NCBI RefSeq assembly: GCF_000717345.1 | Contig: NZ_JNZA01000016.1 | Coordinates: 106,169-170,168, forward strand | From: Streptomyces lydicus | GTDB taxonomy: Bacteria > Actinomycetota > Actinomycetes > Streptomycetales > Streptomycetaceae | Direction: 5' to 3' | Length of the DNA: 64,000 bases | In this document: one piece after another, positions 29,579 through 43,651 of the stretch | Layout of the letters: every line of letters starts with the position of its first letter | Numbering within the stretch: position 1 is the stretch's first letter | Program-made: the position numbers and the translations under genes | Notes under the pieces: generated by a model | What the model was told of the DNA's origin: nothing | Seen by the model: only the letters and a program-made list of their open reading frames with translations | Databases searched by the model: none

Positions 29579-30547
29579 TCAGGCCCGTGCCGTTCTCGCC
29601 CGGCGGTTGTTGACGAGGGCCGCGCCGATCAGGGAGATGACGCCGCCCACGAGGCCCAGGAGGCTGGGGAGTTCATGGAGGAAGGCGAAGGAGATGAGGA
29701 TGGTGATGAGGGGGAGGGCATAGAGGCCCGAGGTGGAGGCGGAGACGTCGAGCCGGGCCAGGGCGTAGTTCCACAGGAGGTAGGCCACGGCGGCGGGGAA
29801 GATGCCGAGGTAGACGAGGATGAGGAGGTTGGGGGTGGTCGCCGAGGCGAGCTGGTGGGTGAGGTCGCCGGCGAAGGGGAGCATCATCAAGGTGCCCGGG
29901 ATCGTGACGTAGAGGTTCAGCTCCATGGAGCTGTAGCGCGTCAGCAGCGGCTTGGACAGGACGAAGTAGAGGCTCTCGGCGATCGCGGCGGCCAGGACGT
30001 AGACGGTGCCGATGTTGATCGAGAGGCCGGCCTGGTCGGCGAAGAGCATGACGACGGTGCCGACGATGCCCACCCCCACGCCGATCCAGCCGACCACCGC
30101 CACCCGCTCACGGAGGATCGCGGCGGCCAGCATGATGCTGAACACCGGGACCTGGCCGACCAGGAAGCTCGCGGTGCCGGGACTGACCGTCTGCTCGCCG
30201 AAGTTCACCCCCAGGTTGTAGACGACGATCAGGAGCAGGGCGCAGAGCAGCAGCAGCGGGATGTCGCGGCGGGCGGGCAGGCGCAGGCGTTCGCGGCGGA
30301 GGCGGGTGGAGACCAGCCACAGGGCCAGCAGGCCCAGGGACGCGATGGTGAAGCGGAGCAGGGCCATCGGCCCGGGGGTGAAGTCGTGCAGGGCGGAGCG
30401 GATGCCGACGAAGGCGGAGGCCCACAGGGTGAGGGCCCCTGCCAGGGCGAGCCAGACCGCGGCCGGGGCCCGGCGGGGGGCCGGGCCCGTGGGGCCCGGC
30501 CCGTCCGCCGGTCGGATCGGCCGCTCGGTGGAGTGCTCAGCGGTCAT
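29579..30547 (-). CDS. EamA/DMT-family exporter, operon-terminal
   Basis: 322 residues with ten membrane helices in two EamA repeats (WLALAGALTLWASAFVGIRSAL and GTVYVLAAAIAESLYFVLSKPLL mark their starts). Members export amino acids or small metabolites. Its ATG overlaps the stop of the WD40-TIR gene (ATGA), so it belongs to the N-hydroxylase operon and probably exports the product or a shunt metabolite. A second EamA gene lies at the other end of the cluster. Confidence 0.92.
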   Translation of the reverse strand: MTAEHSTERPIRPADGPGPTGPAPRRAPAAVWLALAGALTLWASAFVGIRSALHDFTPGPMALLRFTIASLGLLALWLVSTRLRRERLRLPARRDIPLLLLCALLLIVVYNLGVNFGEQTVSPGTASFLVGQVPVFSIMLAAAILRERVAVVGWIGVGVGIVGTVVMLFADQAGLSINIGTVYVLAAAIAESLYFVLSKPLLTRYSSMELNLYVTIPGTLMMLPFAGDLTHQLASATTPNLLILVYLGIFPAAVAYLLWNYALARLDVSASTSGLYALPLITILISFAFLHELPSLLGLVGGVISLIGAALVNNRRARTARA

Positions 30548-32952
30548 GAGCGGGTCCTGTCTATGAGAATGCCGCCGAGGAGGGCGTCGAGGTGGCCGCG
30601 GTGCGCGGTCCGGTTGTCCTCTCCCCCGTACCGGTAGCGGTCGAAACTGTGCAGGTGGTCGGGGAGGCCGGCGGGCGGCTCCACCCCGTTCACGGTGACC
30701 GGCAGCCAGCGGATGCGGCGGCCGGAGGCCCGGGTGCCGGCGGTGAGGCGGGCGTACGGCTCGGCCAGCGGCCCGGCCGGCCACCCGCGGGCGGCGAGGG
30801 ACGGGGTGAGGAGCAGCAGGGCGGTGCGGGCGTCGAGGGTGGACTCGGTCAGCGGGTCGGTGCGGTGCTCGCCGTAGGTGGCGCGCAGGCCGAGGGTGGT
30901 GAGTTCGGCGGCCAGGGCGGCCGCGGTGGGGTGGTCCTCGGGGGTGTGCCAGAGGTGGACGTCGGGACGGTCGTGCCCGGCGAAGCCCTCGTTCAGCAAC
31001 AGGCGTTCCTGGCGGGCCCGTTCGTCGTCGAGGTGCTCGTCGACGACGGCCACCCGGTCCTCGGGACGGGGCGGCAGGTCCGCGTGGGTCAGGGACCGGA
31101 CGCGGGTGGCGGCGGGGTCCCAGGGGCGCAGGCTGCCGGGCACGGTGAGCGGCAGGGACGTGGTGCGGCGGACGGGTGGGGCGGCGTCGGGGCAGGCGCG
31201 GGCGAGGCGGCGGGTCAGGAGCGCGGCGAGGAGCGCGCGGTCCTCGCCGCGGGCCGCGGCGATGCGAACGGTGAGGCCGTTGCCGGGCCCCTCCCCGGCG
31301 GTGAAGCGTGCCGTCACCCGTACGGGGTGGCCGTCGTCGGTCAGGGCGGTCAGGCCCCGGTGGTCGGCGGCCCAGTGGCGGAACAGGGTGGTGTGCAGGA
31401 CGTCGGTCAGGACGCGCGCCGGGGTGTACGGGCCGGCCTGCGGGAAGTGGAGTTCCTCCGCGTCCGGCAGGGTCTCCGGTACCACCTCCGGACGCGTTCC
31501 CCGCCCGGTCTCCGGCACCGCGCCCGGCTCCGCCTCCGTTTCGGCCTCTGTTTCGGCCCGGGGCACCCAAAGTTCCCCGGGGCGGGTGGTGTCGGTGAGC
31601 AGGGCGCGGCCGGTGCGTACGAGCAGGGCGCCGACCAGGGCCGCCGTCGTGGCGGCCGAAGGGTGTCCGGTCCCGCCGGCCGCCGGCGGCGCGGCGGCCA
31701 GCAGCCGTTCGACGGTGGGCCGCAGCGGCAGGTCCGCGCCCGGCGCGGCGGCGGCCGCCGTGACGCAGCGGTCGGCCAGCCGCCGGAGCCGGGCGGGGTC
31801 CAGGGCGGCCACCCGGCCCCCGAAGAAGGCGAGTGCGCCCGCGTCGGCGCCCCGTACGAACTCCGCCTCGGCCCAGCCCTCCGGCTTGCGGAGGGCCGGC
31901 AGCGCGGCGGCGAGGCGGCCGGTGGCGCCGGTGAGGGTCAGGTGGTCCCGGCCGGTGCGCCGGGCGTCGTCCAGCACGTCGCGCAGGACGCCGCCGACCT
32001 GCGCGGCCACCTCCTGCTCCCCGGGCCCGGCACCGTCCGCCGGCGCCAGGGGCCACAGGCGGACCTCCTGGCCGTCGGCGTCGGTGCCCGCCAGGACACC
32101 CGCCGTCGGGGACGCCTCCAGGCAGCCGGTCCAGCCCGGGTAGGCGTCCGCGCGGCGCCACAGCGGCCGGCCGGTGCGGGCGTCCCACACGGCGACGGTC
32201 TGGTCGTGCGAGAGGGTGGCGAGGACGGCGCCGTCATGGCCGGCGGTGACCCGGGCGACCGCCCCGCCGTGGCCGTCGATCGTCGCCCGGGGCCGCAGGG
32301 TGCGCGGGTCCCACAGGTGCACCCGCCCGGCGGCGTTGCCCGTCGCCAGGCCGCCGGGCCACCAGCACACCGTCCAGACGCTGCCCGGCCCGGCGGCGGG
32401 CCGCGCGCGGACCGTCCAGTCCGCGGTGTCCCAGACCGTGAGCTCCGCGCCGCGCGCGGTGGCCGCCAGCGCGGAGCCGTCCGGGGACCAGGCCAGGCTG
32501 AGGAAGACCCCGTAGGGGCTCGGCAGGGGGCGGGTGACCGGGCGGCCGTAGCGGTCGGTGACCACGAGCCGCCGGTCGCCGCCGGCGGCCGCCAGCCGGC
32601 GGCCGTCCGGCGCCCAGGCCACCGCGTTGACCCAGCGCCGGTTGCGCTGCGGGGTCGCCAGCCGTTCGCCGGTCGCGGTGTCCCAGATGCCGACGGTGCC
32701 GTCCTCCGCGCCGGAGGCCAGCAGGGCGTCGTCCGGTGTCCAGGACAGTGACCGTACGGCCCCGTCGTGGCCGCGCAGGGTGGCCAGCAGTTCCGCGGTG
32801 CCGCCGCGGGGACGCCAGATCTTGATCAGACCGTCGTTGCCGCCGGTGGCCAGGCGCTGCCCGTCGTGGGACCAGGACAGCGCGCAGAGCCCGGCGGGGT
32901 GGGCGGCCCAGCCGGCGGTCGCCGGCGGGCACGCCACGGGCCTCGCGGTCAT
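30544..32952 (-). CDS. WD40-repeat protein with C-terminal TIR-like domain
   Basis: 802 residues. Residues about 18-300 contain seven WD40-type blades (LSWSHDGQRLATGGNDGLIKIW, LSWTPDDALLASGAEDGTVGIW and others, each ending near W). Residues 301-600 are unassigned, with a Glu/Ala/Thr repeat near 467-480. Residues about 663-790 look TIR-like: DVHLWHTPEDHPTAAALAAELTTLGLRATY and ARTALLLLTPSL, RRIRWLPVTVNG. No membrane segment is seen. The ATG overlaps the N-hydroxylase stop (ATGA). WD40-TIR proteins are usually signalling or defence proteins, so coupling to a biosynthetic gene is odd. The TIR call is by pattern and less certain than the WD40 call. Confidence 0.85.
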   Translation of the reverse strand: MTARPVACPPATAGWAAHPAGLCALSWSHDGQRLATGGNDGLIKIWRPRGGTAELLATLRGHDGAVRSLSWTPDDALLASGAEDGTVGIWDTATGERLATPQRNRRWVNAVAWAPDGRRLAAAGGDRRLVVTDRYGRPVTRPLPSPYGVFLSLAWSPDGSALAATARGAELTVWDTADWTVRARPAAGPGSVWTVCWWPGGLATGNAAGRVHLWDPRTLRPRATIDGHGGAVARVTAGHDGAVLATLSHDQTVAVWDARTGRPLWRRADAYPGWTGCLEASPTAGVLAGTDADGQEVRLWPLAPADGAGPGEQEVAAQVGGVLRDVLDDARRTGRDHLTLTGATGRLAAALPALRKPEGWAEAEFVRGADAGALAFFGGRVAALDPARLRRLADRCVTAAAAAPGADLPLRPTVERLLAAAPPAAGGTGHPSAATTAALVGALLVRTGRALLTDTTRPGELWVPRAETEAETEAEPGAVPETGRGTRPEVVPETLPDAEELHFPQAGPYTPARVLTDVLHTTLFRHWAADHRGLTALTDDGHPVRVTARFTAGEGPGNGLTVRIAAARGEDRALLAALLTRRLARACPDAAPPVRRTTSLPLTVPGSLRPWDPAATRVRSLTHADLPPRPEDRVAVVDEHLDDERARQERLLLNEGFAGHDRPDVHLWHTPEDHPTAAALAAELTTLGLRATYGEHRTDPLTESTLDARTALLLLTPSLAARGWPAGPLAEPYARLTAGTRASGRRIRWLPVTVNGVEPPAGLPDHLHSFDRYRYGGEDNRTAHRGHLDALLGGILIDRTRS

Positions 32953-34301
32953 ATACCGGCCCCGGTGGGTTCCAGGACGGGCATCTCCAGCGTGGTGGTG
33001 GTCTTGCCTCCCCAGTCCACGGTGGTGCCGTCGACATCCACGTCGTACAGGTAGCGGCCGGTCAGGCTGTTGACGATGACGCCGCTGCGCCAGGCCATCC
33101 CGGCGAAGTTGGGGTCGATCCAGCCGTGGGTGTGCAGGGACATGTTGTGGGCGAAGATCCGGTGGTCCGCCGGGCCGTCCCAGCGCAGCGAGAAGTCCTC
33201 GTTGACGACGCACCGGCCGTCCTCGTCCAGGACCAGCCGGTCGGCGAGCTGGTCGAGCACCGCGGGGACGCCGTTGGAGAAGCCGGTCGCCAGGATCACG
33301 ATGTCGGCCTCCACCGCCTCCACGCCGTGGGGGCCCTCCATGGTGAGCACCCAGCCGTCGGCCTTCGGGGAGACCCGGGTGAACTGGCGGTCCACCAGCA
33401 TCCGGTAGTCCAGCCGGCTGTCGTGGAGGAAGTCCGTCTCGTACAGCCGGCGGTAGATGCCCTCCAGCAGCGGCTGGAGGATGGCGTCGCTGGAGAGCTT
33501 CTGCATCGGCAGCAGGCGCTGCCGCTCGGCGGGCGACTGCGCGTGGAAGTAGCGCGTGTAGCCCGGCACGTACAGCTCGTTGGCGAACGGCGACTCGTCG
33601 AACGGCGCGAAGTTGCCGCGCCGGGTCACCCAGGTGACCTGGGAGGGCAGCCGGGAGTCGTCGGAGATCAGGTCGTCGAAGATCTCCGCGCCGGTCTGGC
33701 CGCCGCCGATCACCGCGACGCGTTTGCCGGTGGGGTCGAGGTCGCGCAGCAGGTACTCGCTGCCGTGGAAGACGGTCTCGCCGAGGTGGGCGCGCGCCCC
33801 CTCGGGGACGAAGGGCGCCCGGCCGACGCCGAGGACCACGTCCTTGGCGCGGTACTCGCCGCGGTCCGTGCCGGCGACGAACGACTCGCCGTCGAAGGTC
33901 AGCGACGCCACGCCGGTGCCGAAGCGGAGCGTGTCGAGGCTGCGGCAGATCCACTTGAAGTACTCGTTGAACTCGCGGCGCATGACGTTGGGGTGGTCGG
34001 CGACCACGAAGCGGTTCAGCCGGCGGCTGCGCGAGAGGTAGTTGAGGAACGAGTACTCGCTCGTCGGGTCGACGAGCGTGACGCAGTCCTTGAGGAACGG
34101 CGACTGCAGCGTGGCGTTGCGGAACAGCAGGCCGGGGTGCCAGTCGAAGCTGTCCTTGGCGTCGAGGAACCGGGCGGTCACTCCGTCCTTCGGCAGCAGG
34201 GCGGCGGTGCTGAGGTTGAACGGGCCGATGCCGATGCCGAGCACGTCGAGGATCTCGGCGGGCGGGGCGGAGGCGGCGGGGCGGTTGCGGTATTCGGACA
34301 C
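32949..34301 (-). CDS. L-lysine N6-monooxygenase-like enzyme (IucD/SidA family)
   Basis: 450 residues. Flavin N-hydroxylase that uses NADPH and O2 to hydroxylate the side-chain amine of lysine or ornithine. FAD motif GIGIGPFNLS (22-31), NADPH motif VAVIGGGQTGAE, the IucD-like blocks FLKDCVTLVDPTSEYSFLNYL, QKLSSDAI and HNMSLHTHGWIDPNFAGMAWRS are all intact; lysine is favoured by the resemblance to IucD. GTG 34301 has GAGGAG 9 nt upstream. Only 2 nt separate it from the MetRS-like gene. No siderophore synthetase or NRPS is nearby, so the hydroxylamine is probably used for N-N bond formation (inference). Confidence 0.93.
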   Translation of the reverse strand: MSEYRNRPAASAPPAEILDVLGIGIGPFNLSTAALLPKDGVTARFLDAKDSFDWHPGLLFRNATLQSPFLKDCVTLVDPTSEYSFLNYLSRSRRLNRFVVADHPNVMRREFNEYFKWICRSLDTLRFGTGVASLTFDGESFVAGTDRGEYRAKDVVLGVGRAPFVPEGARAHLGETVFHGSEYLLRDLDPTGKRVAVIGGGQTGAEIFDDLISDDSRLPSQVTWVTRRGNFAPFDESPFANELYVPGYTRYFHAQSPAERQRLLPMQKLSSDAILQPLLEGIYRRLYETDFLHDSRLDYRMLVDRQFTRVSPKADGWVLTMEGPHGVEAVEADIVILATGFSNGVPAVLDQLADRLVLDEDGRCVVNEDFSLRWDGPADHRIFAHNMSLHTHGWIDPNFAGMAWRSGVIVNSLTGRYLYDVDVDGTTVDWGGKTTTTLEMPVLEPTGAGI

Positions 34302-34303
34302 GG

Positions 34304-35869
34304 TCAGTTGCTCCTCACGTGGCACACGGGTGCTATCTCGTCGGCGGTGAAGGTCTGCGGCGGTACGGGGGCCGCGGGGACGGCGGGGCCGGACGCGCGG
34401 TCCAGGACGGCGAGCCGGGGGCGGCCCGGCCTGCCGAGCGCCGTCCACAGGCGCTGCGCGGCCTCCGGCATGAACGGCTCGGCGAGCAGGGCCACCCCGG
34501 TCGCCCAGGCGGCGCCGGTGACCGGCGGCCGGGTCAGCCACTCGTCGAGGACCCGGACCGCGGCGGGCAGGCTGACCGCCGCCCCGGGCCGCAGCTGCGC
34601 CCCCTGCTCGTGGACGGCCGCGGCGATCCGGGCGGCGCCCTCGGCCGGCAGCGCGCCGCCGCCGGCCTCCTGCGCCTGGTGCGAGGCGGCGGCGAGCCGC
34701 TCGCGGACGTGGTTGACGCTGTCGACGAAGGCGGCGACGGCGAAGTTGTCGCTACCGGTCGTCAGGTCCACATGGCTCAGGTGGTAGCGCAGCTCGTCGG
34801 CGGTCGCCGAGGTGCGGGAGAGGAGCTCGTTCAGCCAGATGCCGTGTTTGCGGCTGGTGGAGCACTTCTCGCCCTCGAAGTCCAGGAAGTAGTTGGTCAC
34901 CATGTGGTCGAACGCCTTGAGCTCGCCGTGGGCGTGCGCGAGCGCCTGGCTGGCGGCGACCCCGCCGACCGCGTTGTCGATGCCGAACAGCCCGACGGTG
35001 ATCACGCCGGAGTCCCGGTGGAAGGCGTTGTGCTCGGTGCCGTGGCGCTGCCGGTAGACCTCGCCGCAGTAGAGGCTGAAGCCGAAGTACGGGTTGCTCA
35101 GCACGCCTTCGGGGCCGGCCAGCTCGCTGGGGATGCCCCAGCTGCCCGGCTGCGAGAGCCGTACCGCGCCCTTGGTCTGCCGCAGGTAGGTGACCGCGAT
35201 GTCGGCGAAGTCGGACGCCACGTCCGAGGCCCGCACCGCGTCGACGACGTCCTCGACGGACGGCGGGCTCAGGTACCAGCTGTCGAAGTCCTCCCAGTCC
35301 AGCGGGCCTTCGTCCAGCCGCGAGTACGGTTCGAGGATCTCCGACGGCTGGTAGTGGTAGCCGCACTCCTCGCAGGCGTTGCCGCCGCCGGGGGTGTGGC
35401 ACTGCGGGCAGGTGCCCTTCAGCCACACGCCGATGACATGGCGCCCGGTGTCCCGCGAGCGGGGGGTGGGGTCGGGCACCTTGACGGCGGTGCCGGCCGC
35501 CGCCAGCCGCTCCAGCAGCTCCTCGTGGGTGCGGCGGTAGGGCTCGGCGTGGTCGTCGGCCAGCGGGCTGATCCAGTCGTCGAGCTCCACGCCGAGGCTG
35601 CGCAGGTCGTCGCCGATCAGGGCGTGGAAGCGCCAGCAGGTCTCCGCCGGGGAGCGGCCCGCGTCGAGCGCGTCCAGCAGGATCCAGTTCTCGTACGCGT
35701 CGCTGCCGCTCATCACCGACACCTGGTGGCCCTCGCGGCGCAGGTGGCGGGCGAGCACATCGGCCCGCAGGTAGGCGCCCGCGGCGTGCCCGATGTGCAG
35801 CCGCCCGTTGGGCGTGGGGTGCATCGGTACGAGCAGATAGCGCTGTGGCTCCGGGGTTTCGGGGGTCAT
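34304..35869 (-). CDS. Methionyl-tRNA-synthetase-like enzyme, biosynthetic type
   Basis: 521 residues of the class I aaRS/MetRS fold. HIGH motif at 25-28 (GRLHIGHAAG), zinc knuckle with Cys154, 157, 166 and 169 (CPQC...CEEC) and a KMSKS-position motif reading KCSTS (335-339, EGEKCSTSRKHG). The anticodon-binding half is degenerate. MetRS-like proteins beside lysine N6-hydroxylases are the hydrazine synthetase partners described for s56-p1, formycin and related pathways; those are fused to a cupin, while this one is not. AAGGAG lies 4 nt before the ATG. A spare housekeeping MetRS is the alternative, but context argues against it. Confidence 0.9.
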   Translation of the reverse strand: MTPETPEPQRYLLVPMHPTPNGRLHIGHAAGAYLRADVLARHLRREGHQVSVMSGSDAYENWILLDALDAGRSPAETCWRFHALIGDDLRSLGVELDDWISPLADDHAEPYRRTHEELLERLAAAGTAVKVPDPTPRSRDTGRHVIGVWLKGTCPQCHTPGGGNACEECGYHYQPSEILEPYSRLDEGPLDWEDFDSWYLSPPSVEDVVDAVRASDVASDFADIAVTYLRQTKGAVRLSQPGSWGIPSELAGPEGVLSNPYFGFSLYCGEVYRQRHGTEHNAFHRDSGVITVGLFGIDNAVGGVAASQALAHAHGELKAFDHMVTNYFLDFEGEKCSTSRKHGIWLNELLSRTSATADELRYHLSHVDLTTGSDNFAVAAFVDSVNHVRERLAAASHQAQEAGGGALPAEGAARIAAAVHEQGAQLRPGAAVSLPAAVRVLDEWLTRPPVTGAAWATGVALLAEPFMPEAAQRLWTALGRPGRPRLAVLDRASGPAVPAAPVPPQTFTADEIAPVCHVRSN

Positions 35870-35895
35870 GGCACTCCTTCGTGCGTGCGGGGTGG

Positions 35896-36687
35896 CTAGA
35901 TGTGCGGGACGTAGGGGGTGAAGTCGACGAGCAGGACGGAGCGTTCGCCGCGCCGCGCGTCGGGGCCCAGGCGCACCGGGCTGACGTAGTGGCTGACCTT
36001 CGGGTCGTAGACGGCGTACGAGTCCAGCGGGCCGTCGAGGGTGAACTCGGCCTCGATCAGCTCCTCGTTGACCTCCTGCGGGCGCAGGCCGGCGCAGCGC
36101 GGGGGAGCGATCACGTTCACGCCGCCGGTGACGTTGTAGCGGCTGATCAGGTGGGCGAAGGTGAACGGTTCGCCGTCCTGGTGCAAGGCGTTGGGGGAGG
36201 GCACGGCGACCTCGTCGGCGCCGTCCACGGCCAGTTTGAGGAAGTGCACGCCGACGTGGACCAGGCCGTGGCGCAGGCTCTCCAGCTGGCAGGCTTCCTC
36301 GGCGTCGAAGAGGATGATCTGGCGCAGCAGCGCGTTGGCGCGGGCCTCGGGGGTGACCGCGGGGAAGCGGCGCCGCTCGCCGCGGTGTTCGGGGTTGTGT
36401 TCGCCCTGGTAGTACTCGGTGACCGGCCCGAGGGCCGGGTCCGGGGTGGTCGGCAGCCAGGTCAGGGACTGGTCCCAGGGGACGTAGACCGCGCGGCCGT
36501 ACCTGCGGAAGCGGTGGGCGTGCTCGGCGTACGGGTCCGGGGGCAGCTCCGCGAAGGCGTCCCGGAGCCGCCCGAAGAGCGCGTCGGCGTCGTGCTCGCC
36601 GACCCTCTCCAGGAAGACCTCGCGGTCGTAGCGCTCAAATCCTTTGCCGAGCAAGCGAGTTGATGCCTCGACGGACAGTGTCGTCAT
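35896..36687 (-). CDS. 2-oxoglutarate/Fe(II) dioxygenase, PF10014 type
   Basis: 263 residues. The motif ALHQDGEPFTFAHLISRYNVTGGVNVI matches the PF10014 family of free-amino-acid hydroxylases (isoleucine dioxygenase IDO, BsmA). The facial triad is His169, Asp171 and His233 (KVSHYVSPV), with a candidate 2OG-binding Arg at 246 or 249. It should oxidise an amino acid or a pathway intermediate, releasing succinate and CO2. GGAG lies 9 nt before the ATG. It is the first gene of the five-gene operon and is 26 nt upstream of the MetRS-like gene. Confidence 0.87.
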   Translation of the reverse strand: MTTLSVEASTRLLGKGFERYDREVFLERVGEHDADALFGRLRDAFAELPPDPYAEHAHRFRRYGRAVYVPWDQSLTWLPTTPDPALGPVTEYYQGEHNPEHRGERRRFPAVTPEARANALLRQIILFDAEEACQLESLRHGLVHVGVHFLKLAVDGADEVAVPSPNALHQDGEPFTFAHLISRYNVTGGVNVIAPPRCAGLRPQEVNEELIEAEFTLDGPLDSYAVYDPKVSHYVSPVRLGPDARRGERSVLLVDFTPYVPHI

Positions 36688-36755
36688 GTTCTTTCACTCC
36701 GTTATTCGCTTCAGGGAATCCCGCATCCGGACAGGGCGGGGCCGATCGGACGTGC

Positions 36756-36845
36756 AGAGGGAAGGAAGAAAAAGGGGGAAAAGGGGGGAAAGGGGCGCGA
36801 GGAGGGCAGGGGGCGGTGGAACAGGGGGAGGGGAGGGGAGGGAGG
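36756..36845 (+). repeat. Polypurine tract with G-quadruplex motif
   Basis: Plus strand is about 90 percent A/G for 90 nt. Within it 36824-36842 reads GGGGGAGGGGAGGGGAGGG, four G-runs separated by single A residues, a textbook G4-forming sequence. The tract ends about 69 nt upstream of the dioxygenase start codon. Confidence 0.8.
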
Positions 36846-36939
36846 CATCGGCCGATGCGGCACAACCGAGGAGATGCGCAGATTCCTCAACTCGGGATGT
36901 CCGGGAGGGATCGGCCGAGGGGGGAGTTCCGGTTCAGTG

Positions 36940-36972
36940 GGCCGGCCGCGTGCCGGGGACGCGCGGCCGGCC
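36940..36972 (-). terminator. Terminator after the DJ-1/PfpI gene
   Basis: A perfect 11-bp stem (GGCCGGCCGCG / CGCGGCCGGCC) with an 11-nt loop, 30 nt past the PfpI stop. It marks the end of the upstream transcription unit, so the dioxygenase operon probably has its own promoter. Confidence 0.65.
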
Positions 36973-37002
36973 TGCCATCAGGGTCGTCGGGCTCCGTTCA
37001 GG

Positions 37003-37701
37003 TCACAGGATGTCGCACAGCACCCGGGCGAGCGGCCGCGCCGACGCCGGGTTCTGGCCGGTCAGGAGGGCCCGGTCACGGACGAGGTGCTCGCCCCAGG
37101 GCGGGGCCGCGACGAAGCGGGCGCCGCGCTTGACCAGGCGTCCCTCGGCCGTCCAGGGAATGAGGTCCAGCAGTCCGAGATCGGCCTCCTCCTCGTCGGT
37201 GAAGGACGTCATCTCGTAACCGCTGAACAGCCATTCACCGGCTACATCCATGGAGGACAGGAGCGCCGCCGGGCCGTGGCAGACCGCCGCGATGGGTTTT
37301 CCGGTGCGATGGAACTCGCTCAGCACCCGCCCGCAGTCGGGGTCGGCCCACAGGTCTGCCAACGGGCCGTACCCGCCGGGGATGAACACCGCGTCGAACC
37401 GCTCCACGTCGACGGAGGCCAGCGGCACCGGAGTGGTGTAGCGCGGACGCAGTGCCTCGACGGCGTCGATCAGTTCGGCGCAGCGCTCGGCGCTGTACCC
37501 GGTGCCCTCCGGGGTGAGCCCGGCGGGGTCGGCGCCGGCCGGGGCGCCTTCTGGGGTGGCGAGGACGGTGGAGATGCCGGCGGCCGCGAAGACGGCCTCC
37601 GGATCCACGACCTCCTCCGGCCAGAATCCCGCGGTACGACAACTTCCGTCGGTGAGTGGCAGCTCGGTGGCGGCTGACAGCATCATCAGGACCGACGTCA
37701 T
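37003..37701 (-). CDS. DJ-1/PfpI family protein (Hsp31/glyoxalase III-like)
   Basis: 232 residues. The nucleophile elbow AAVCHGPAALL gives Cys141-His142, and FIPGGYGPLADL supplies the conserved Gly-rich loop and a candidate Glu/Asp partner. Length and the long segment before the elbow match the Hsp31-like glyoxalase/deglycase branch. In a biosynthetic operon such proteins may detoxify an aldehyde, hydrate an isonitrile-like group or act as a cyclase; none can be chosen from sequence. GGAAGGAG precedes the ATG. It closes the left transcription unit. Confidence 0.9.
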   Translation of the reverse strand: MTSVLMMLSAATELPLTDGSCRTAGFWPEEVVDPEAVFAAAGISTVLATPEGAPAGADPAGLTPEGTGYSAERCAELIDAVEALRPRYTTPVPLASVDVERFDAVFIPGGYGPLADLWADPDCGRVLSEFHRTGKPIAAVCHGPAALLSSMDVAGEWLFSGYEMTSFTDEEEADLGLLDLIPWTAEGRLVKRGARFVAAPPWGEHLVRDRALLTGQNPASARPLARVLCDIL

Positions 37702-37785
37702 GGCTGCTCTCCTTCCTGTGTGAGTGGTTCGGGCGGTCGCCTGCGGTGCCCGCCGCGCGCGGCACGCGCCGCCGGCGACCCCCGC

Positions 37786-38859
37786 TTACTGGCCGGCCGG
37801 CTCCTCGGCGTAGAGGCCGAGTCGCTCCAGCAGAGGGAACTCGTTGTACGAGAACAGCACGGCCTCTCCGGTGCCGGGGTTGGCGTGGCTGTGCCACGAC
37901 CAGGACGGCACGCAGAAGGTGTCCCCGGCGCTCCAGGCGTGGTCCACGCCGTCGATCGTCACGGTGCCGCGCCCTTGCGCGGCCACGTAGACGACCGAGC
38001 CGGTGTGCCGGTGGCTCCGGGTCTGCTCGCCCGCCGCCAGCAGCTGCAGTTTCGCGCCGACGGTGGGGGTCACCGACCCGCCCGTGGCAGGGTTGGTGTA
38101 CTCCATGATCACGCCGTCGAACGCGGAGTGGTGCCCGGCCCGCGCGGCCGCCGTCAGCGCCTCGTGGCACTTCTCCCACGGGAAGGAGAACAGCGGGGAG
38201 TTCTCGGCGCGCCGACGGGTGTCGGGCAGCAGCAGGCCGCCGTAGCGGGCGAGGGTGTCGTTGCGCGGCCCGCCGGTGAGGTGGGTGCCCTGCGGGTGCA
38301 GCTCGAAGAAGTTCGCCCCGAGGGTGTTGACCAGCGGATCGTCGGTGCAGTCCTGCCAGATGACGAGTCCGTCGTCGGAGTCGTTGCCGTGTTCGTGCCA
38401 CAGCCGGCTGGGCGTGATCACCACATCGCCCGGGCCGACGGGCATCCGGTCGCCGTCGACGGCCGTCCAGCCGCCCTCGCCCTCCAGCACGAAACGGATC
38501 GCGGAGGCGGCGTGCCGGTGGGCGGTCATCCGCTCGTGCGGTTTGAGGGTCTGCAGCCCCGAGTACAGGTGGCCGACGGCCGCCTCGTGGTCCGGGTGGC
38601 CGGGGTTGAGGTGGGTGATCACCCGCAGGGCGGCGTCCTCGCCCTTGACGAACTCCGCGGCCTCGACGGCGAACGGACGCATGTCCGCGTAGCGCCACAG
38701 GGCGGGCACCGAGCGGGGGGCCGGGGTCCAGGACTGGTTCTCGTTGGCGGCGCTCCACCGCCCGACGGCGTGGTGGTGGCGCAGCCGGCCGGCGAAGGTC
38801 TCCGGCTCGGCGGGGCCGCGCCGCCCGGGGCGGGCCACGCCGGTGAGGGCCGGGCTCAT
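37786..38859 (-). CDS. Bicupin protein, gentisate 1,2-dioxygenase-like
   Basis: 357 residues with two cupin domains. The first has MTAHRHAASAIRFVLEGEG and GDVVITPSRLWHEHGND, with the His-x-His...His ligand set; the second has RSHRHTGSVVYVAAQGRG and GDTFCVPSWSWHSHANPG. Both halves appear able to bind metal. The closest family look is gentisate or 1-hydroxy-2-naphthoate dioxygenase, but no aromatic-degradation genes surround it. As the only cupin in a cluster with MetRS-like and N-hydroxylase genes it could instead act in N-N bond chemistry. It overlaps the decarboxylase stop by 4 nt. Confidence 0.88.
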   Translation of the reverse strand: MSPALTGVARPGRRGPAEPETFAGRLRHHHAVGRWSAANENQSWTPAPRSVPALWRYADMRPFAVEAAEFVKGEDAALRVITHLNPGHPDHEAAVGHLYSGLQTLKPHERMTAHRHAASAIRFVLEGEGGWTAVDGDRMPVGPGDVVITPSRLWHEHGNDSDDGLVIWQDCTDDPLVNTLGANFFELHPQGTHLTGGPRNDTLARYGGLLLPDTRRRAENSPLFSFPWEKCHEALTAAARAGHHSAFDGVIMEYTNPATGGSVTPTVGAKLQLLAAGEQTRSHRHTGSVVYVAAQGRGTVTIDGVDHAWSAGDTFCVPSWSWHSHANPGTGEAVLFSYNEFPLLERLGLYAEEPAGQ

Positions 38860-40334
38860 AACGTGCTCCGTTCGGTCAGGCGCGGGGCCGCACAGCGCTC
38901 CGCGGCGGCGGTGAGTTCGCTCCACAGGGCGTCGATGTCGGCTTCGGTGGTGTGGATGTTTCCGATGGAGATGCGTAGCGCGTACCCCGTGGGCAGCACG
39001 GTGTGCGAGACGAAGGAGGTCCTGCCGTCGTTGACGGCCCGGTGGATGCGCCGGTTGAGCTCGTCGGTCTCCGCGTCGTCGAGGTCCCGGTCGTGCGGGC
39101 GGTGGCGCAGGCACACCAGCGGGAAGGGCGAGTCGTTCTCCACCGTCCAGTCCGGGTGGGCGCGGGCCCGGGCCCGCAGGCCGTCGGCGAGGGCGGCCGC
39201 GGCGCTCAGCCGGCTGGTGAGGCCCGCGACCCCGAACGACTTGATCAGCCACCACAGTTTGAGGGCCCGGAACTGCCTGCCCAGCTGGAGCGAGTAGTTC
39301 ATGAAGTCCACGCTGCCGTCCTCGTGACGGGTGCGCAGGTACTCCGGTACGACGCGGAAGGTGTTGGTGAGGGCGTCGCGGTGCCGGCAGAACAGCGCGC
39401 CGGCCTCCATCGGGCTCAGCAGGACCTTGTGCGGGTTGGCCACCACCGAGTCGGCCCGGGACAGGTCGGGCAGCAGCGGGCGCACCTCGGGCGCCAGCCG
39501 CCAGAAGCCGCCGTACGCCGCGTCGACGTGCAGCCAGGTGTCGTACGCGGCGCACACCTCGGCGATCTCCTCGACCGGGTCGATCGCCCCGATGGAGGTG
39601 GTGCCGACGTTCGCGACCACGGCCAGCGGCCGGTGCCCGCTGCGCACGTCCCGCTCCAGGGCCGCCCGCAGCGCCTCGGGGTCGAGCCGGCCGGTGGGGC
39701 CGGCGGGGAGGCGTACGACGTTGTCGAGGCCGACGCCGAGGGTGATGGCCGCCTTGTCGACGGAGCTGTGGGTCTGGTCGGAGGTGTAGATCCGCAGCCG
39801 CGGCAGGTCCCGGCCGGCCAGCCCCTGCTGCCGGATGTCCAGGTCGGACAGCCGCTCCCGGGCGGCGGCCAGGGCGTAGAGCGTGCCCAGGGAGGCGCCG
39901 TCGACCAGTACGGAGTCCTGCGCCACGGGGTAGCCGACCATCTGCGCGAGCCAGTCGAGGACCGTCAGTTCCACGGCGGCGGCGGCCGGCGCGGCGTCCC
40001 ACAGCATCACGTTGACGTTCATCGCCGCGGTGAACATCTCCGCCAGGATGGCCGGTCCGCTGGAGCTGTTGCTGAAGTACGCGTGGAAGCGCGGGTGGTT
40101 CCACAGGGTGAGGTTGGGGCGGACGTCGTCCCAGGTCTGTTGGAGGATCTCGGGGAACGGTTGCGGTGCGGTGGGCAGCGGTTCGTCGATGACCGCGCGG
40201 ATCTCCTGCGCGGAGCGCGTGGTGGTGACGGGCTGGGTGCGCAACGTCGTGAAGTGCTCGCGCAGTTGGGACAACAGGAGGTGGCCGTTCTTCTCCAGCT
40301 CTTCGGGGCTCCAGTCCCCGACGTTCTCACTCAT
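38856..40334 (-). CDS. PLP-dependent group II amino acid decarboxylase
   Basis: 492 residues, fold-type I. PLP-binding features: SDQTHSSVDKA (ring-stacking His189), LHVDAAYGGFW (Asp271) and NPHKVLLSPME (Schiff-base Lys303). The usual aromatic-decarboxylase DPHKW is replaced by NPHKVLL, so the substrate pocket is probably unusual. Length matches aromatic-L-amino-acid and diaminobutyrate decarboxylases. It is 39 nt downstream of the ABM-like gene and overlaps the bicupin start (ATGA). It could act on an amino acid precursor or on a modified intermediate. Confidence 0.92.
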   Translation of the reverse strand: MSENVGDWSPEELEKNGHLLLSQLREHFTTLRTQPVTTTRSAQEIRAVIDEPLPTAPQPFPEILQQTWDDVRPNLTLWNHPRFHAYFSNSSSGPAILAEMFTAAMNVNVMLWDAAPAAAAVELTVLDWLAQMVGYPVAQDSVLVDGASLGTLYALAAARERLSDLDIRQQGLAGRDLPRLRIYTSDQTHSSVDKAAITLGVGLDNVVRLPAGPTGRLDPEALRAALERDVRSGHRPLAVVANVGTTSIGAIDPVEEIAEVCAAYDTWLHVDAAYGGFWRLAPEVRPLLPDLSRADSVVANPHKVLLSPMEAGALFCRHRDALTNTFRVVPEYLRTRHEDGSVDFMNYSLQLGRQFRALKLWWLIKSFGVAGLTSRLSAAAALADGLRARARAHPDWTVENDSPFPLVCLRHRPHDRDLDDAETDELNRRIHRAVNDGRTSFVSHTVLPTGYALRISIGNIHTTEADIDALWSELTAAAERCAAPRLTERSTL

Positions 40335-40373
40335 GGGTGTCCTTACGTGGCACAGGGAGTGGACGGCGGCGGG

Positions 40374-40697
40374 TCAGTGGTCGTGGTCGACCTCGACCTC
40401 CAGCTCGGTGGCGTAGCGGATCTGCCGCGGGCGGGTGCAGTACGTGCGGTACAGCGGCTCCGCCAGGGCCTCCTCGGTCTTCAGCAGGTCCTCGTGGTCC
40501 TGCTTGCTGCGCCACGAGTACTGCCACGTCACCTGGTGCGGATCGGCCTCGTCCTGGAAGAAGGTGGCGTGCCCGTTCCAGCCGGCGTGGGCGTGGGCGC
40601 TGTCGCCCAGCGCGTCGTCCATCTGCTGCATGACCTTCGTCGCCTGGGTGGCGGCGTCGTCGTTGAGGTACCAGGTCTCGATCACCGTGATGGCCAT
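40374..40697 (-). CDS. Small ABM-like (dimeric alpha-beta barrel) protein
   Basis: 107 residues. The pattern VIETWYLNDDAATQATKVMQQMDDALGD, HAGWNGHATFFQDEADPHQVTWQYSWRSKQDHEDLL resembles antibiotic-biosynthesis-monooxygenase/ferredoxin-like barrel proteins, with strands around VIETWYL and VTWQYSW. Members are cofactor-free monooxygenases, haem-degrading enzymes or cyclases. GGAGACGG lies just before the ATG. It sits 39 nt before the decarboxylase gene. The family call rests on fold pattern, not on a catalytic motif. Confidence 0.75.
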   Translation of the reverse strand: MAITVIETWYLNDDAATQATKVMQQMDDALGDSAHAHAGWNGHATFFQDEADPHQVTWQYSWRSKQDHEDLLKTEEALAEPLYRTYCTRPRQIRYATELEVEVDHDH

Positions 40698-40739
40698 GGC
40701 CGTCTCCTTGGGTGTGGTGTGCGGTGTGTGCGGGGTGTG

Positions 40740-41249
40740 TCAGGCGTTGGCGTTGAAGTAGTCCTGGAGCAGCGACTGGCCGCCGGGGACGAACTTCTCG
40801 CAGATGAGCTTGTGGCTGGCGCGGTTCTGGGACTGCGCGCGCCAGAGGCGGGTGGCGGCGCGCTCGACGTCCTCGGGCACGTGCCCGGCGCGGATGGCGC
40901 TCTTCAGGCCGGTGCGGATCGTGCGCATGAGGTGCAGCATCCGCTCGTGGTCGGTGTTGAACTTCCCGGAGAAGCCGGGGTTCAGCCAGGGCGGCTCCAT
41001 GGACGGCCGGATGAGGCTTTCGTAGGCCGTCGCCGGGAAATCCGACGCATAGCGCATGCACGAGGTGGCGGCGCCGTAGAGCCGGCTGAGGGTGTCCAGC
41101 AACGGGCGGGTGGACTGCCAGTCACGTTCCTCGACACATTTCTGCAATGACGTGAGGTAGGTGTTCATCACGGTGAGATGCAGATGGAAGACGTGATGTC
41201 CGAGCTTCCACCGGCGCACTGCTGTCTGCTGTTCCTGCGATATGTGCAT
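40740..41249 (-). CDS. Unrecognised 169-aa protein of the cluster
   Basis: I do not recognise a family. The sequence is helical, with many His and aromatic residues: WKLGHHVFHLHLTVMNTYL at about 15-33, then LYGAATSCMRYASDFP and WLNPGFSGKFNTDHERMLHLMRTI. An all-alpha bundle with several His residues could bind a metal or haem, but no known motif is present. It is in tight order between the 99-aa protein (50 nt) and the ABM-like gene (42 nt), so it is probably a functional part of the operon. Confidence 0.85.
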   Translation of the reverse strand: MHISQEQQTAVRRWKLGHHVFHLHLTVMNTYLTSLQKCVEERDWQSTRPLLDTLSRLYGAATSCMRYASDFPATAYESLIRPSMEPPWLNPGFSGKFNTDHERMLHLMRTIRTGLKSAIRAGHVPEDVERAATRLWRAQSQNRASHKLICEKFVPGGQSLLQDYFNANA

Positions 41250-41299
41250 CGCTGTCGAGCGCTCCCTTTCCCTACCGGGGGGTCGGAATTTCGGGCCGG

Positions 41300-41599
41300 T
41301 CAGCTCGCCATTTGCTGCAGCGTGTGCTGCAGGATGATGGCGATACCGTCAAGAATCTGGGCCTGTTCGCCGTCTTCCAGGCTGGTGGCCGGCAGATCGG
41401 CCCGCACCTTTTCCGCGATCGTCAGCACGGTGTGCACCCAGTCGCCCTGGGACATGTCGTCCTCGTGCTCGATGCGGAAATACGCGTCGTACTCGTCGTT
41501 CTCGCTGATCGGTTTCACCTCGCCCGGTGCCTGGCCGTTGCTGGGCAAGGTGATCGGAGCGATCAGGCGGTAATCATCTACAAGGGTCTCTTCACCCAT
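41300..41599 (-). CDS. Unrecognised acidic 99-aa protein of the cluster
   Basis: I do not recognise a family. It is rich in Asp and Glu, contains no cysteine and shows SENDEYDAYFRIEHEDDMSQGDWV in its centre, then a helical tail AEKVRADLPATSLEDGEQAQILDGIAII. No membrane segment. GGGGAAA lies before the ATG at 41599. Sixty-seven nt separate it from the EamA exporter upstream. Possible roles are an accessory subunit or a carrier-like protein; no Ser-based carrier motif such as DSL is present. Confidence 0.8.
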   Translation of the reverse strand: MGEETLVDDYRLIAPITLPSNGQAPGEVKPISENDEYDAYFRIEHEDDMSQGDWVHTVLTIAEKVRADLPATSLEDGEQAQILDGIAIILQHTLQQMAS

Positions 41600-41666
41600 G
41601 ACGTTTCCCCGTCGGTTGGCAGAACTTCCGTCAGAACGGTCTTGCGCTTACCGGGTACTACCTCAT

Positions 41667-42629
41667 TCAGGAACGATTGCGGCCGGCCGGACGCGGGGTG
41701 CGGTGGGAGAACCACACCGCGGCGATCACGATCACGCAGCCGACGAGCTGGGAGGCGCTGGGCGTCTCCCGGAGGATCACCAGTCCGAAGCCGATGGCCA
41801 TCACCGGCTGGAGCAGGAGCAGGGCGGCGGACGTGTTCGGCGCCAGCCGGGGCGTCCCGGTGCTGATCAGCAACCAGGCCGCCACCTGCCCCAGCAGGGC
41901 CAGCGCGACCACCCAGCCCCAGGAGACCGGTGAGATCGACAGCGGGAGGCCCGTGGTGAACAGGCTGATCAGTCCGGCGGTCGCCGCGGCGGCGCCGGTG
42001 GAAATACAGATCGGTGTGACGACGTGCCGTGGACTGCGCTCGCCGGAGGCCCGGTTGAGGTACAGATACACCGCATAGGCAACTCCCGCGGCCACACCGA
42101 GCACCGCACCACGTACCGGATTACCGGATTCCGAGCCGTGTTGCAGCGCACCACTCGCCAGCGCGATTCCGGCCAACATCACCGGAATGGTGAAGACGAA
42201 CCGGCGGGAGATCGCCGTTCCGCCGAACACCCTGGCCAGCAGCGGGAATACGATGACCTGCACGTTGATCAGTACGGTGGCCACCGCCGCACCCACGTCG
42301 AGGATGCTCATCGTCCACATGACGTAATCCGCGCCGAGAAAAACGCCCGCTACCACCGCATATCCCTGCAACGGCCGGGACAGCCACCCTTTGCGCCATA
42401 CCTCGTGCGCGAGCAGCGGCACCAGGGCGACCAGGGCGACGGCGCAGCGCAGGAATGCCGCGGTACCCGCGCTGATGTCGGCGAGCTTGACGAACATCGC
42501 CGAGGCCGACAAACAGGCGGCTCCGCCGATGACCAACACCGCGGGGCCCGTTGTGCCCTGCGGGCGGTCCGGGAGGGTGTCATCGGAGGTCTTCACAGAA
42601 GACGTTGAGGTCGCATCCACAACGTTCAC
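41667..42629 (-). CDS. EamA/DMT-family exporter next to the LysR regulator
   Basis: 320 residues with ten membrane helices in two EamA halves (GPAVLVIGGAACLSASAMFVKLADIS and GAVLGVAAGVAYAVYLYLNRAS start the halves). The start is GTG 42629, with weak ribosome-site evidence. It diverges from the LysR gene across 65 nt and heads the minus-strand unit that carries the decarboxylase and bicupin genes, so it is probably under LysR control and exports the product or an intermediate. Confidence 0.9.
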   Translation of the reverse strand: MNVVDATSTSSVKTSDDTLPDRPQGTTGPAVLVIGGAACLSASAMFVKLADISAGTAAFLRCAVALVALVPLLAHEVWRKGWLSRPLQGYAVVAGVFLGADYVMWTMSILDVGAAVATVLINVQVIVFPLLARVFGGTAISRRFVFTIPVMLAGIALASGALQHGSESGNPVRGAVLGVAAGVAYAVYLYLNRASGERSPRHVVTPICISTGAAAATAGLISLFTTGLPLSISPVSWGWVVALALLGQVAAWLLISTGTPRLAPNTSAALLLLQPVMAIGFGLVILRETPSASQLVGCVIVIAAVWFSHRTPRPAGRNRS

Positions 42630-42694
42630 GATGACAGCGTGAGCCCTGTAACACTATTCAAAATTCATTAGGTAAAAGCATTAGTCTGCCTTAC
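42630..42694. promoter_or_regulatory. AT-rich divergent promoter of exporter and LysR genes
   Basis: Only 65 nt, with an unusually AT-rich core (CTATTCAAAATTCATTAGG and AAAAGCATTAG) in a 72 percent GC genome. A T-N11-A-type LysR operator could fit in ATTCATTAGGTAAAAGCATTA. No -10/-35 assignment is secure. Confidence 0.55.
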
Positions 42695-43651
42695 ATGATC
42701 ACCTGGGAGAGATTACGTGTCTTTGCCGCCGTGGCCCGGCTCGGCTCCGTGGGCGCGGCGGCCGAGGCCCTGCACATCACCGGCCCGGCGGTGTCCCAGC
42801 ATCTCCGCAAACTCGAGAAGGAGGCGCAGTGCCAGCTCATCGAGCGGGACGGCCGCGGCATCAGACTCACCAGTGCCGGACAGGTGCTGGCCGCGTCCGC
42901 CCAGTCCATGGTGGGCACGCTCGCGGACGCCGAGCGTGACCTGGCCAACCTGCACGGTCTCGTCGCCGGGCCGCTGCGCATCGGCGGCGTCGCCAGTGCC
43001 ATCCGGGCCCTCGTCCCGCAGGTGCTGCACCGGCTGATCGAACGTCATCCGCGCCTCGAACCGTCGTTGCGGGACGGTGAGGCGGTCGACATGATCCCGA
43101 TGCTTCAGGAGCGCCAGCTGGACGCGGTCGTCACGGAGAGCTGGACGCACCGCCCGGCCCACATGCCCTCCGGGGTCCGCACCACCCGGCTGCTGCACGA
43201 GGACGCCCAACTGGCGGTGCCCGCCGGACATCCGCTCGCCGACCGGGAGTTCGTGGCGCTGAACGAACTCCACGGCGAGCTGTGGACCAGCTGTCCGGAG
43301 GGGAGCGACGCGCACGAGGCGCTGCTGCAGCTGCTGCGCGCCCATGAGGTGGAGGCGGACGTGCGCTACTGCGTCTCCGACTACGCCACCCAGCTCCAGC
43401 TGGTGGCGGCCGGCCTCGCGGTGACGATGGTGCCGCGCATGGTGCGTGCCTCCGCCTCCAAGGACGTGCGGTTCATCCCCTGCCGGCCGACCGTCACGCG
43501 CAGCGTGATCGTGGCGACCGCGGCCGACGCCGAGACGCCGCGCGTACGGGCCTTCATGGCGGAGATGATCCGCGTCGCCTACCGGGCGGAGCCCAGCTGT
43601 CCGCCGCCCGGCCGGCCCGGCGCGGCGGCGGGCCCGGCCCCGGTGGACTGA
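42695..43651 (+). CDS. LysR-family transcriptional regulator
   Basis: 318 residues. N-terminal winged helix with ERLRVFAAVARLGSVGAAAEALHITGPAVSQHLRKLEKEAQCQL, then the effector-binding domain beginning GPLRIGGVASAIRALVPQVL. It diverges from the EamA exporter and is the only regulator in the cluster, so it is the likely pathway-specific regulator. No clear Shine-Dalgarno precedes the ATG. A Pro/Gly/Ala-rich tail of about 25 residues follows the domain. Confidence 0.93.
   Translation: MITWERLRVFAAVARLGSVGAAAEALHITGPAVSQHLRKLEKEAQCQLIERDGRGIRLTSAGQVLAASAQSMVGTLADAERDLANLHGLVAGPLRIGGVASAIRALVPQVLHRLIERHPRLEPSLRDGEAVDMIPMLQERQLDAVVTESWTHRPAHMPSGVRTTRLLHEDAQLAVPAGHPLADREFVALNELHGELWTSCPEGSDAHEALLQLLRAHEVEADVRYCVSDYATQLQLVAAGLAVTMVPRMVRASASKDVRFIPCRPTVTRSVIVATAADAETPRVRAFMAEMIRVAYRAEPSCPPPGRPGAAAGPAPVD

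Follow-up and report, generated by a model that had tools for sequence, protein, structure and literature searches.

This study has resolved a candidate biosynthetic locus of Streptomyces lydicus into two separately conserved modules. The locus, at positions 29579 to 43651 of the 64,000-nucleotide stretch of DNA that was analysed (the window), comprises 13 genes and belongs to a host genome of 8.18 Mb (G000); the G+C content of the window is 72%, and the named relatives closest to its proteins are from Streptomyces. Module B (29579-36687) encodes an exporter of the EamA family (EamA1), a WD40 protein, a lysine N6-hydroxylase-type flavin monooxygenase (LysOH), a ligase resembling methionyl-tRNA synthetase (MetRS-like) and a PF10014 dioxygenase. 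Module A (37003-43651), set off by a 315-bp gap between the PF10014 gene and the DJ-1 gene, encodes a DJ-1/PfpI protein, a bicupin, a pyridoxal phosphate (PLP)-dependent decarboxylase, three short proteins of 107, 169 (P169) and 99 (P99) residues, a second exporter (EamA2) and a LysR regulator. An original prediction from this sequence had treated the whole as one candidate cluster of the hydrazine type, with a nitrogen-nitrogen (N-N) bond, whose product would be a small N-N or N-O amino-acid derivative; that view gives way to two modules, A being found elsewhere without B, and B without A in one genome (G364). We favour, at a little under an even chance, a reading in which both modules serve one small-molecule pathway, module B acting as a cupin-less maker of an ester or hydroxamate and module A supplying a ring-cleaved unit derived from 3,4-dihydroxyphenylalanine (DOPA) or dopamine. 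The module assignments are based on sequence, and from them we infer the substrates, the order of the steps, the link between A and B and the final product.

Module B was sought with its MetRS-like protein in 394 Streptomycetaceae genomes (E <= 1e-60); 18 matched, three of them (G000, G110 and G364) at identities of at least 70%. A PF10014 search of 392 Streptomyces genomes, with 28 matches at E <= 1e-40, added a fourth, G503, in which all module A and B genes are 92-99% identical to those of the window. No further module B locus emerged from a draw of 394 Actinomycete-class genomes, or from 150 genomes of relatives, where the three that matched were the window's own genome and two distant ones. 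The EamA1, WD40, LysOH, MetRS-like and PF10014 genes are clustered in all four loci; EamA1 is 67-97% identical to its counterparts in the other three, and the window's WD40 gene shares 4 nt with the gene on either side of it. Module A was traced through P169. A search with its family (alignment A1, 34 aligned sequences) gave 31 loci in named genomes, actinomycete in nearly every case, against which 15 window genes were compared by tblastn (E <= 1e-4; flanks of up to 10 kb, several loci ending at contig ends). The genes for LysR, EamA2, P169, the 107-residue protein, the decarboxylase, the bicupin and DJ-1 occur together in ten of them (L004-L007, L009, L014, L015, L019, L020 and L025), nine of which also have a detectable P99 gene, and L026, at a contig end, retains five module A genes. 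LysOH, MetRS-like, PF10014 and EamA1 found no match in any of these loci; the single match to a module B gene was one of 28% to the WD40 protein, in L021.

The pairing that gave rise to the hydrazine prediction is borne out. LysOH is an intact IucD/SidA-type N-hydroxylase (PF13434, 316 bits), and 2 nt lie between its start (34301) and the stop codon of the MetRS-like gene (ending at 34304). Its identity is 76-96% to the proteins of the B loci, 40-46% to the LysOH of 11 loci with MetRS-like and cupin genes, and 30-33% to five siderophore-type enzymes in the PDB and to two other N-hydroxylases of G000. The LysOH rows of the window, the B loci and the cupin loci, 15 in all, share an SD[AG]I stretch that is missing from the seven others, while a D[DE]SPF stretch is found in the LysOH rows plus MbtG and PvdA and not in diamine-type enzymes. 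Diamine hydroxylases form one clade of the LysOH tree (100/100), the B proteins another (100/100) and the cupin-locus proteins a group supported at 95/93, the branching among these three being without resolution. On these likenesses LysOH is assigned to the same wider family as the lysine N6-hydroxylases of MetRS/cupin pathways. A role as a desferrioxamine-type diamine hydroxylase is ruled out by the tree, the identities and the motif stretches: the window protein falls outside the DesB/FbsI clade and reads DESPFANE where diamine-type enzymes have a stretch of their own, and G000 carries a separate DesB-like gene on contig C10 beside a PLP decarboxylase. This is one of two other pairs of neighbouring N-hydroxylase and PLP decarboxylase in that genome, C10:4899-7341 (DesB-like in the tree) and C24:110679-112870, the decarboxylase match of the latter reading through one TGA.

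The MetRS-like protein is distinct from the housekeeping MetRS of G000, keeps the catalytic motifs (HIGH, the Asp of SD(A), and KxSTSR) in a motif alignment, and by its sequence is a member of the wider family used by MetRS/cupin hydrazine synthetases. In its tree, which has a very long outgroup branch, the B proteins group with a five-member, cupin-poor group D (82/75), and the cupin-partnered groups C and E stand apart (97/95). The notion of a hydrazine-synthetase-type cluster survives as to the wider families of LysOH and the ligase, and fails as to the bicupin proposed as hydrazine-forming partner. A plasmid search yielded two further MetRS-like loci, both distant; the annotation of one includes LysOH and a small cupin, and the other is unannotated. 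The group D proteins (L060-L063 and L119) are about 42-45% identical to that of the window and have no LysOH match; ATP-grasp ligases flank the gene in L060 (by Pfam) and likewise in L063 (by sequence clustering), and L060-L063 share a class-III aminotransferase cluster. Perhaps the group D protein is an amide ligase.

In PyrN-type systems, as set out in the parts of PMC8664883 drawn on here, the MetRS-like domain esterifies N6-hydroxylysine with an amino acid and a zinc cupin converts the ester to a hydrazine. Without cupin activity the O-acyl ester made by the PyrN MetRS domain rearranges to N-glutamyl-N6-hydroxylysine; the E56A variant of PyrN lost all activity, and with RHS1 E69A the ester was not converted (same source). 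A (D/E/H)xHxxxE motif is present in 14 of 15 distinct cupins compared here, that of L061 being the exception. Cupins of the RHS1 kind (the C-type protein has the RHS1 structure 5uqp as its best PDB match, 3.5e-15) stand at the ligase, fused or separate, in all 16 loci examined outside groups B and D (11 of group C, two of group E, two plasmid loci and L126 of G421), in one of five group D loci (L061, without the motif) and in none of the four B loci; the locus cupin profile was built from the same loci that it scored, and a single-sequence tblastn agrees with it save at L061.

The original prediction gave the cupin role to the bicupin, which is encoded in the neighbouring operon and does match hydrazine-cupin profiles weakly (43 bits, with 47 bits for the gentisate-type bicupin of L102, and about 30 bits per barrel with a profile of nine rows). 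It is, however, a protein of gentisate 1,2-dioxygenase type, with 3bu7 as its top PDB match (323 bits, 1.7e-95) and HxH...WHxH in both barrels, and its stretches HRHAASA and HRHTGSV carry Ala and Val at the position of the Glu that is essential in hydrazine-forming cupins. It is moreover kept with module A among 31 loci in which neither a MetRS-like nor a LysOH gene was found, and is absent from the B-bearing G364. Motif, family and co-occurrence largely rule it out as the N-N enzyme; the comparison with hydrazine-synthetase cupins that had been proposed as a check goes against it, and its partnership with the ligase appears very improbable.

The gene of the PF10014 protein adjoins that of the ligase. 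Because its closest PDB relative is L-isoleucine-4-hydroxylase (6lnh, 1.9e-12), and because neither a MetRS-like nor a LysOH match turned up in the 16 loci retrieved, out of 26 places where 47-51%-identical homologues lie, the enzyme probably acts as an amino-acid hydroxylase in module B. In five loci (L105, L109, L110, L112 and L113) dioxygenases of 47-49% identity stand beside a conserved protein of about 329 residues and a very large one (about 1320 residues) that by eye has the look of an adenylation enzyme; these loci probably represent an unrelated peptide pathway. For module B itself we propose that LysOH would make N6-hydroxy-L-lysine and that the MetRS-like ligase would adenylate an amino acid and esterify the N-OH group with it; the outcome would be an O-aminoacyl hydroxylamine. 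The PF10014 dioxygenase would perhaps hydroxylate that amino acid, before this step or later. Since a dedicated N-N-forming zinc cupin is missing, the likeliest product would be the O-aminoacyl ester or the rearranged N-aminoacyl-N6-hydroxylysine hydroxamate, with EamA1 as its predicted exporter.

In module A, P169 and P99, described in the original prediction as unrecognised, are placed by profiles as parts of a heme-dependent tyrosine hydroxylase. Profile A1 matches SfmD (6vdp, 1e-17), TyrH (7kqr, 3.4e-11) and a TyrH-type protein (8r2s, 8.1e-10), and residues R13, W14, H18, H146 and C150 of P169 are the same in all 34 sequences of the alignment. When P169 is aligned to SfmD, H146-x3-C150 falls on H-I-G-V-C, a place where the two TyrH chains have the His and no Cys; SfmD presumably binds its heme through the Cys that aligns with C150. 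A title cited in PMC11791213 gives the heme of SfmD a single thioether bond, and the portion of PMC3851162 used here describes for LmbB2 an R-W-x3-H stretch that R13-W14-x3-H18 of P169 matches. Some actinomycetes have natural P99-P169 fusions of about 272 residues (P0023, P0034 and P0039), and SfmD residues 96-284 are the part covered by a profile of the fused form, A2; for both reasons P99 is probably the N-terminal part, and the two proteins together have the appearance of one SfmD/TyrH-type heme tyrosine hydroxylase divided over two genes. PF27188, a precomputed family of 169-residue relatives, gave no match in a Pfam scan of the window protein.

The PLP enzyme has DOPA decarboxylase as its best PDB relative (7xin, 4.7e-80), and a homologue of it accompanies P169 in 30 of the 31 loci (none in L008; partial in L010 and L033). 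The split heme enzyme would hydroxylate tyrosine, or a tyrosine-like ring, to a catechol, the PLP enzyme would decarboxylate, and the gentisate-type bicupin would cleave the aromatic ring, with EamA2 as candidate exporter and LysR as candidate regulator. Judged from the relatives of these enzymes, the route would run from tyrosine through DOPA and dopamine to ring cleavage, and module A would yield a DOPA- or dopamine-derived unit, probably with its ring opened. Many other P169 loci (L010-L013, L016-L018, L021-L024 and L027-L034) carry P169 and decarboxylase homologues with no bicupin or DJ-1 match, and in many of these a gap of about 0.7-1.8 kb precedes the decarboxylase gene, which suggests that the same family of heme hydroxylases serves in other pathways as well.

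A functional link between the modules is likely, as judged from gene order and co-occurrence. Module A adjoins module B in three of the four B loci: G000, G503 and, with the order swapped, G110. In the last of these the genes for DJ-1, the bicupin, the decarboxylase, the 107-residue protein, P169 and P99 lie on the other side of B, EamA2 is inverted, and the LysR gene (L059; protein 70% identical) is divergent from PF10014, whereas that of the window is divergent from EamA2. With the order swapped and LysR moved beside B, A and B are thus adjacent in two arrangements. The module A proteins of G110 are 44-62% identical to those of the window (P99 32%), and those of L004-L007 56-76% (P99 46-55%). 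For a count across genomes, the two draws of 394 Streptomycetaceae genomes used for the MetRS-like and P169 proteins were taken as the same set. P169-type matches at E <= 1e-10 occur in 57 of the 394, most being longer, weaker relatives; the short form (E < 1e-50) occurs in six, and five of these have a complete module A (G000, G110, G363, G353 and G240, the last three being the genomes of L004-L006), G242 being left out of that count as it has only P169 and a decarboxylase of 32% identity. By this count two of three B genomes have a complete module A, as do three of the remaining 391 (Fisher p = 0.0004). The idea that LysR has a common operator in front of the two modules was considered and discarded: no clear shared palindrome was found, and by eye there is no copy upstream of the PF10014 gene of the window. 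CACTA- and TTAGxCTG-like stretches do lie beside LysR in the window, in L059 and, in part, in some module A loci.

Several observations weigh against a joint, cupin-less pathway. Module A stands without B, within the flanks, in all 31 P169 loci. G364 holds B with no P169 (E <= 0.001, best 150 of 173 candidates) and no bicupin, so A is dispensable for B. When G000 is left out, complete A occurs in one of two B genomes against three of 391 (p = 0.02), which is one independent case. The presence of each module without the other favours an alternative in which A and B are merely neighbours, A serving a tyrosine- or catecholamine-type pathway and B making a separate metabolite. Such independence has to contend with adjacency in two diverged arrangements (that of the window and G503, and that of G110), with the divergence of the G110 module A proteins noted above, and with a LysR homologue whose neighbour is module A in the first arrangement and module B in the second; we consider it unlikely.

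The cupin question holds further points of this kind. The bicupin scores 287 bits against TIGR02272, below the NCBIfam cut-off of 442; the grouping of B with D rests on support of 82/75; and the hydrazine output of the cupin loci is itself assigned by homology. A genome-wide query with a single cupin sequence gave at most 27 bits in G000, G503 and G110 and nothing in G364, and it missed the ligase-adjacent cupin of G048, which shows that a search of this kind may pass over distant cupins. The search was repeated with the nine-row profile, the best 150 of 215-231 first candidates being scored in the B genomes. The best matches were 33 bits in G000, 32 in G503, 38 in G110 and 33 in G364, against 141, 141, 85 and 71 bits for the MetRS-linked cupins of G251, G064, G048 and G421, the first three of which are or resemble rows of the profile; among the D genomes, G195 and G230 have unlinked cupins at 64-79 bits and G105 reaches 31 at best. 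Generic cupins (32-38 bits) are thus found in all four B genomes and could act in trans, and because the G000 match, on contig C9, carries an HxxxE site, such help may occur.

These cupins bear on a second alternative, that module B does make a hydrazine, the ester being rearranged to an N-N bond by the PF10014 enzyme or by a cupin encoded elsewhere in the genome. PF10014 is a family of double-stranded beta-helix metalloenzymes. The kinship of LysOH and the ligase with hydrazine-pathway enzymes is in keeping with such an outcome, as are the adjacency of the PF10014 and ligase genes in every B locus, the generic cupins of all four B genomes and the HxxxE site of the one in G000. The closest PDB relative of PF10014 is, however, an amino-acid hydroxylase, and no MetRS-like or LysOH gene was found in the 16 fetched loci of its homologues; the cupin matches of the B genomes are far weaker than those in cupin/MetRS genomes, and the ligase lies outside the cupin-partnered clade. 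We regard N-N formation by module B as rather unlikely. On the favoured reading of a cupin-less module B joined to module A, the joint product is probably new and may lack an N-N bond.

Gene calls recover every gene where the original prediction had placed it (Table 1). Among the 13 genes there is, as had been stated, no non-ribosomal peptide synthetase, polyketide synthase or siderophore synthetase, and domain scans bear out the PF10014 dioxygenase, the PLP decarboxylase, DJ-1, the bicupin and the two EamA exporters. The label 'ABM-like' for the 107-residue protein found no support, no Pfam or NCBIfam match being found at E <= 0.01. Of the supposed WD40-TIR protein the WD40 part is supported (PF00400, 115 bits) and the TIR part is not, residues 300-802 having no Pfam match at E <= 0.01. 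Its C-terminal half has at least five relatives among the matches listed, all from Streptomyces, the list missing the protein of G110. The protein was also considered as a known defence protein and rejected: the sole PADLOC match (HEAT-ARM_XIII, 38 bits) covers residues 22-126, within the WD40 part.

Table 1. Genes of modules B and A in the window
Feature	Positions	Strand	Module and remarks
EamA1 exporter, EamA family, 322 aa	29579..30547	-	B; PF00892 138 bits
WD40 beta-propeller protein, 802 aa	30544..32952	-	B; PF00400 115 bits
LysOH, lysine N6-hydroxylase-type flavin monooxygenase, 450 aa	32949..34301	-	B; PF13434 316 bits
MetRS-like ligase, 521 aa	34304..35869	-	B; PF09334 131 bits
PF10014 2-oxoglutarate (2OG)-Fe(II) dioxygenase, 263 aa	35896..36687	-	B; PF10014 104 bits
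DJ-1/PfpI family protein, 232 aa	37003..37701	-	A; PF01965 56 bits; kept in module A loci
Gentisate 1,2-dioxygenase-like bicupin, 357 aa	37786..38859	-	A; PDB 3bu7
Aromatic L-amino-acid/DOPA decarboxylase-like PLP enzyme, 492 aa	38856..40334	-	A; PF00282 297 bits
107-aa protein	40374..40697	-	A; homologue in 20/31 P169 loci
P169, 169 aa, putative heme-domain half of split tyrosine hydroxylase	40740..41249	-	A; profile matches SfmD, TyrH
P99, 99 aa, probable N-terminal part of same split enzyme	41300..41599	-	A; natural fusions
EamA2 exporter, EamA family, 320 aa	41667..42629	-	A; PF00892 75 bits; next to LysR in module A loci
LysR regulator	42695..43651	+	divergent from module A; PF03466/PF00126

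More broadly, we put forward tentatively, as a proposal on the doubtful side, that a cupin-less LysOH/MetRS-like pair has turned from hydrazine to hydroxamate or O-acyl hydroxylamine synthesis together with a PF10014 hydroxylase, and that in some Streptomyces it is coupled to a split SfmD-like hydroxylase, a DOPA decarboxylase and a ring-cleaving bicupin, yielding undescribed chelating or reactive amino-acid derivatives. If the ligase works without a cupin, the hydrazine-synthetase scaffold would have a second output, an ester or hydroxamate, and genome-mining calls of N-N products from LysOH and MetRS-like genes alone would change. The split SfmD-like enzyme would likewise represent a two-gene branch of the heme-dependent aromatic oxygenases (HDAO), spread over many actinomycetes, and would supply a candidate function for PF27188 proteins now annotated as hypothetical. 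That the gene set is unusual, as originally claimed, agrees with the literature searched (titles and abstract openings of the papers listed, subscription journals mostly falling outside it), which showed no such combination and no account of such a cluster; this is weak evidence of absence. The portion of an N-N review that was consulted (PMC11705231) makes no mention of '2-oxoglutarate' or 'dioxygenase'.

Set beside known systems, module B resembles PyrN, Spb40, Tri28 and the RHS1 system in having LysOH and MetRS-like proteins of the same families, encoded by adjacent genes and with the catalytic motifs kept. It differs from them in lacking the [DEH]xHxxxE zinc cupin, in the placement of its ligase in another clade, and in having a PF10014 dioxygenase, a WD40 protein and an EamA exporter instead. 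Iyer and co-workers (2010), in the part of PMC2922099 relied on here, likewise joined paralogous MetRS to lysine 6-monooxygenase and noted accessory 2OG dioxygenases; they found a cupin and LysOH with all such paralogues, the cupin without exception, and it is the cupin that module B lacks. Because this feature was looked for in module B and not found, the module is filed as a MetRS/LysOH variant and not as a hydrazine synthetase. The bicupin of module A is like gentisate 1,2-dioxygenase in its HxH...WHxH barrels and its score to 3bu7, and unlike it in falling below the equivalog cut-off and in standing in a module where no gentisate pathway gene was recognised. Within the HDAO superfamily, P169 shares RWxxxH and an RPSM-type stretch with SfmD, TyrH and LmbB2, and HxxxC with SfmD; unlike these enzymes, the predicted P99/P169 hydroxylase is split into two genes, in a module that also encodes a decarboxylase and a gentisate-type bicupin.

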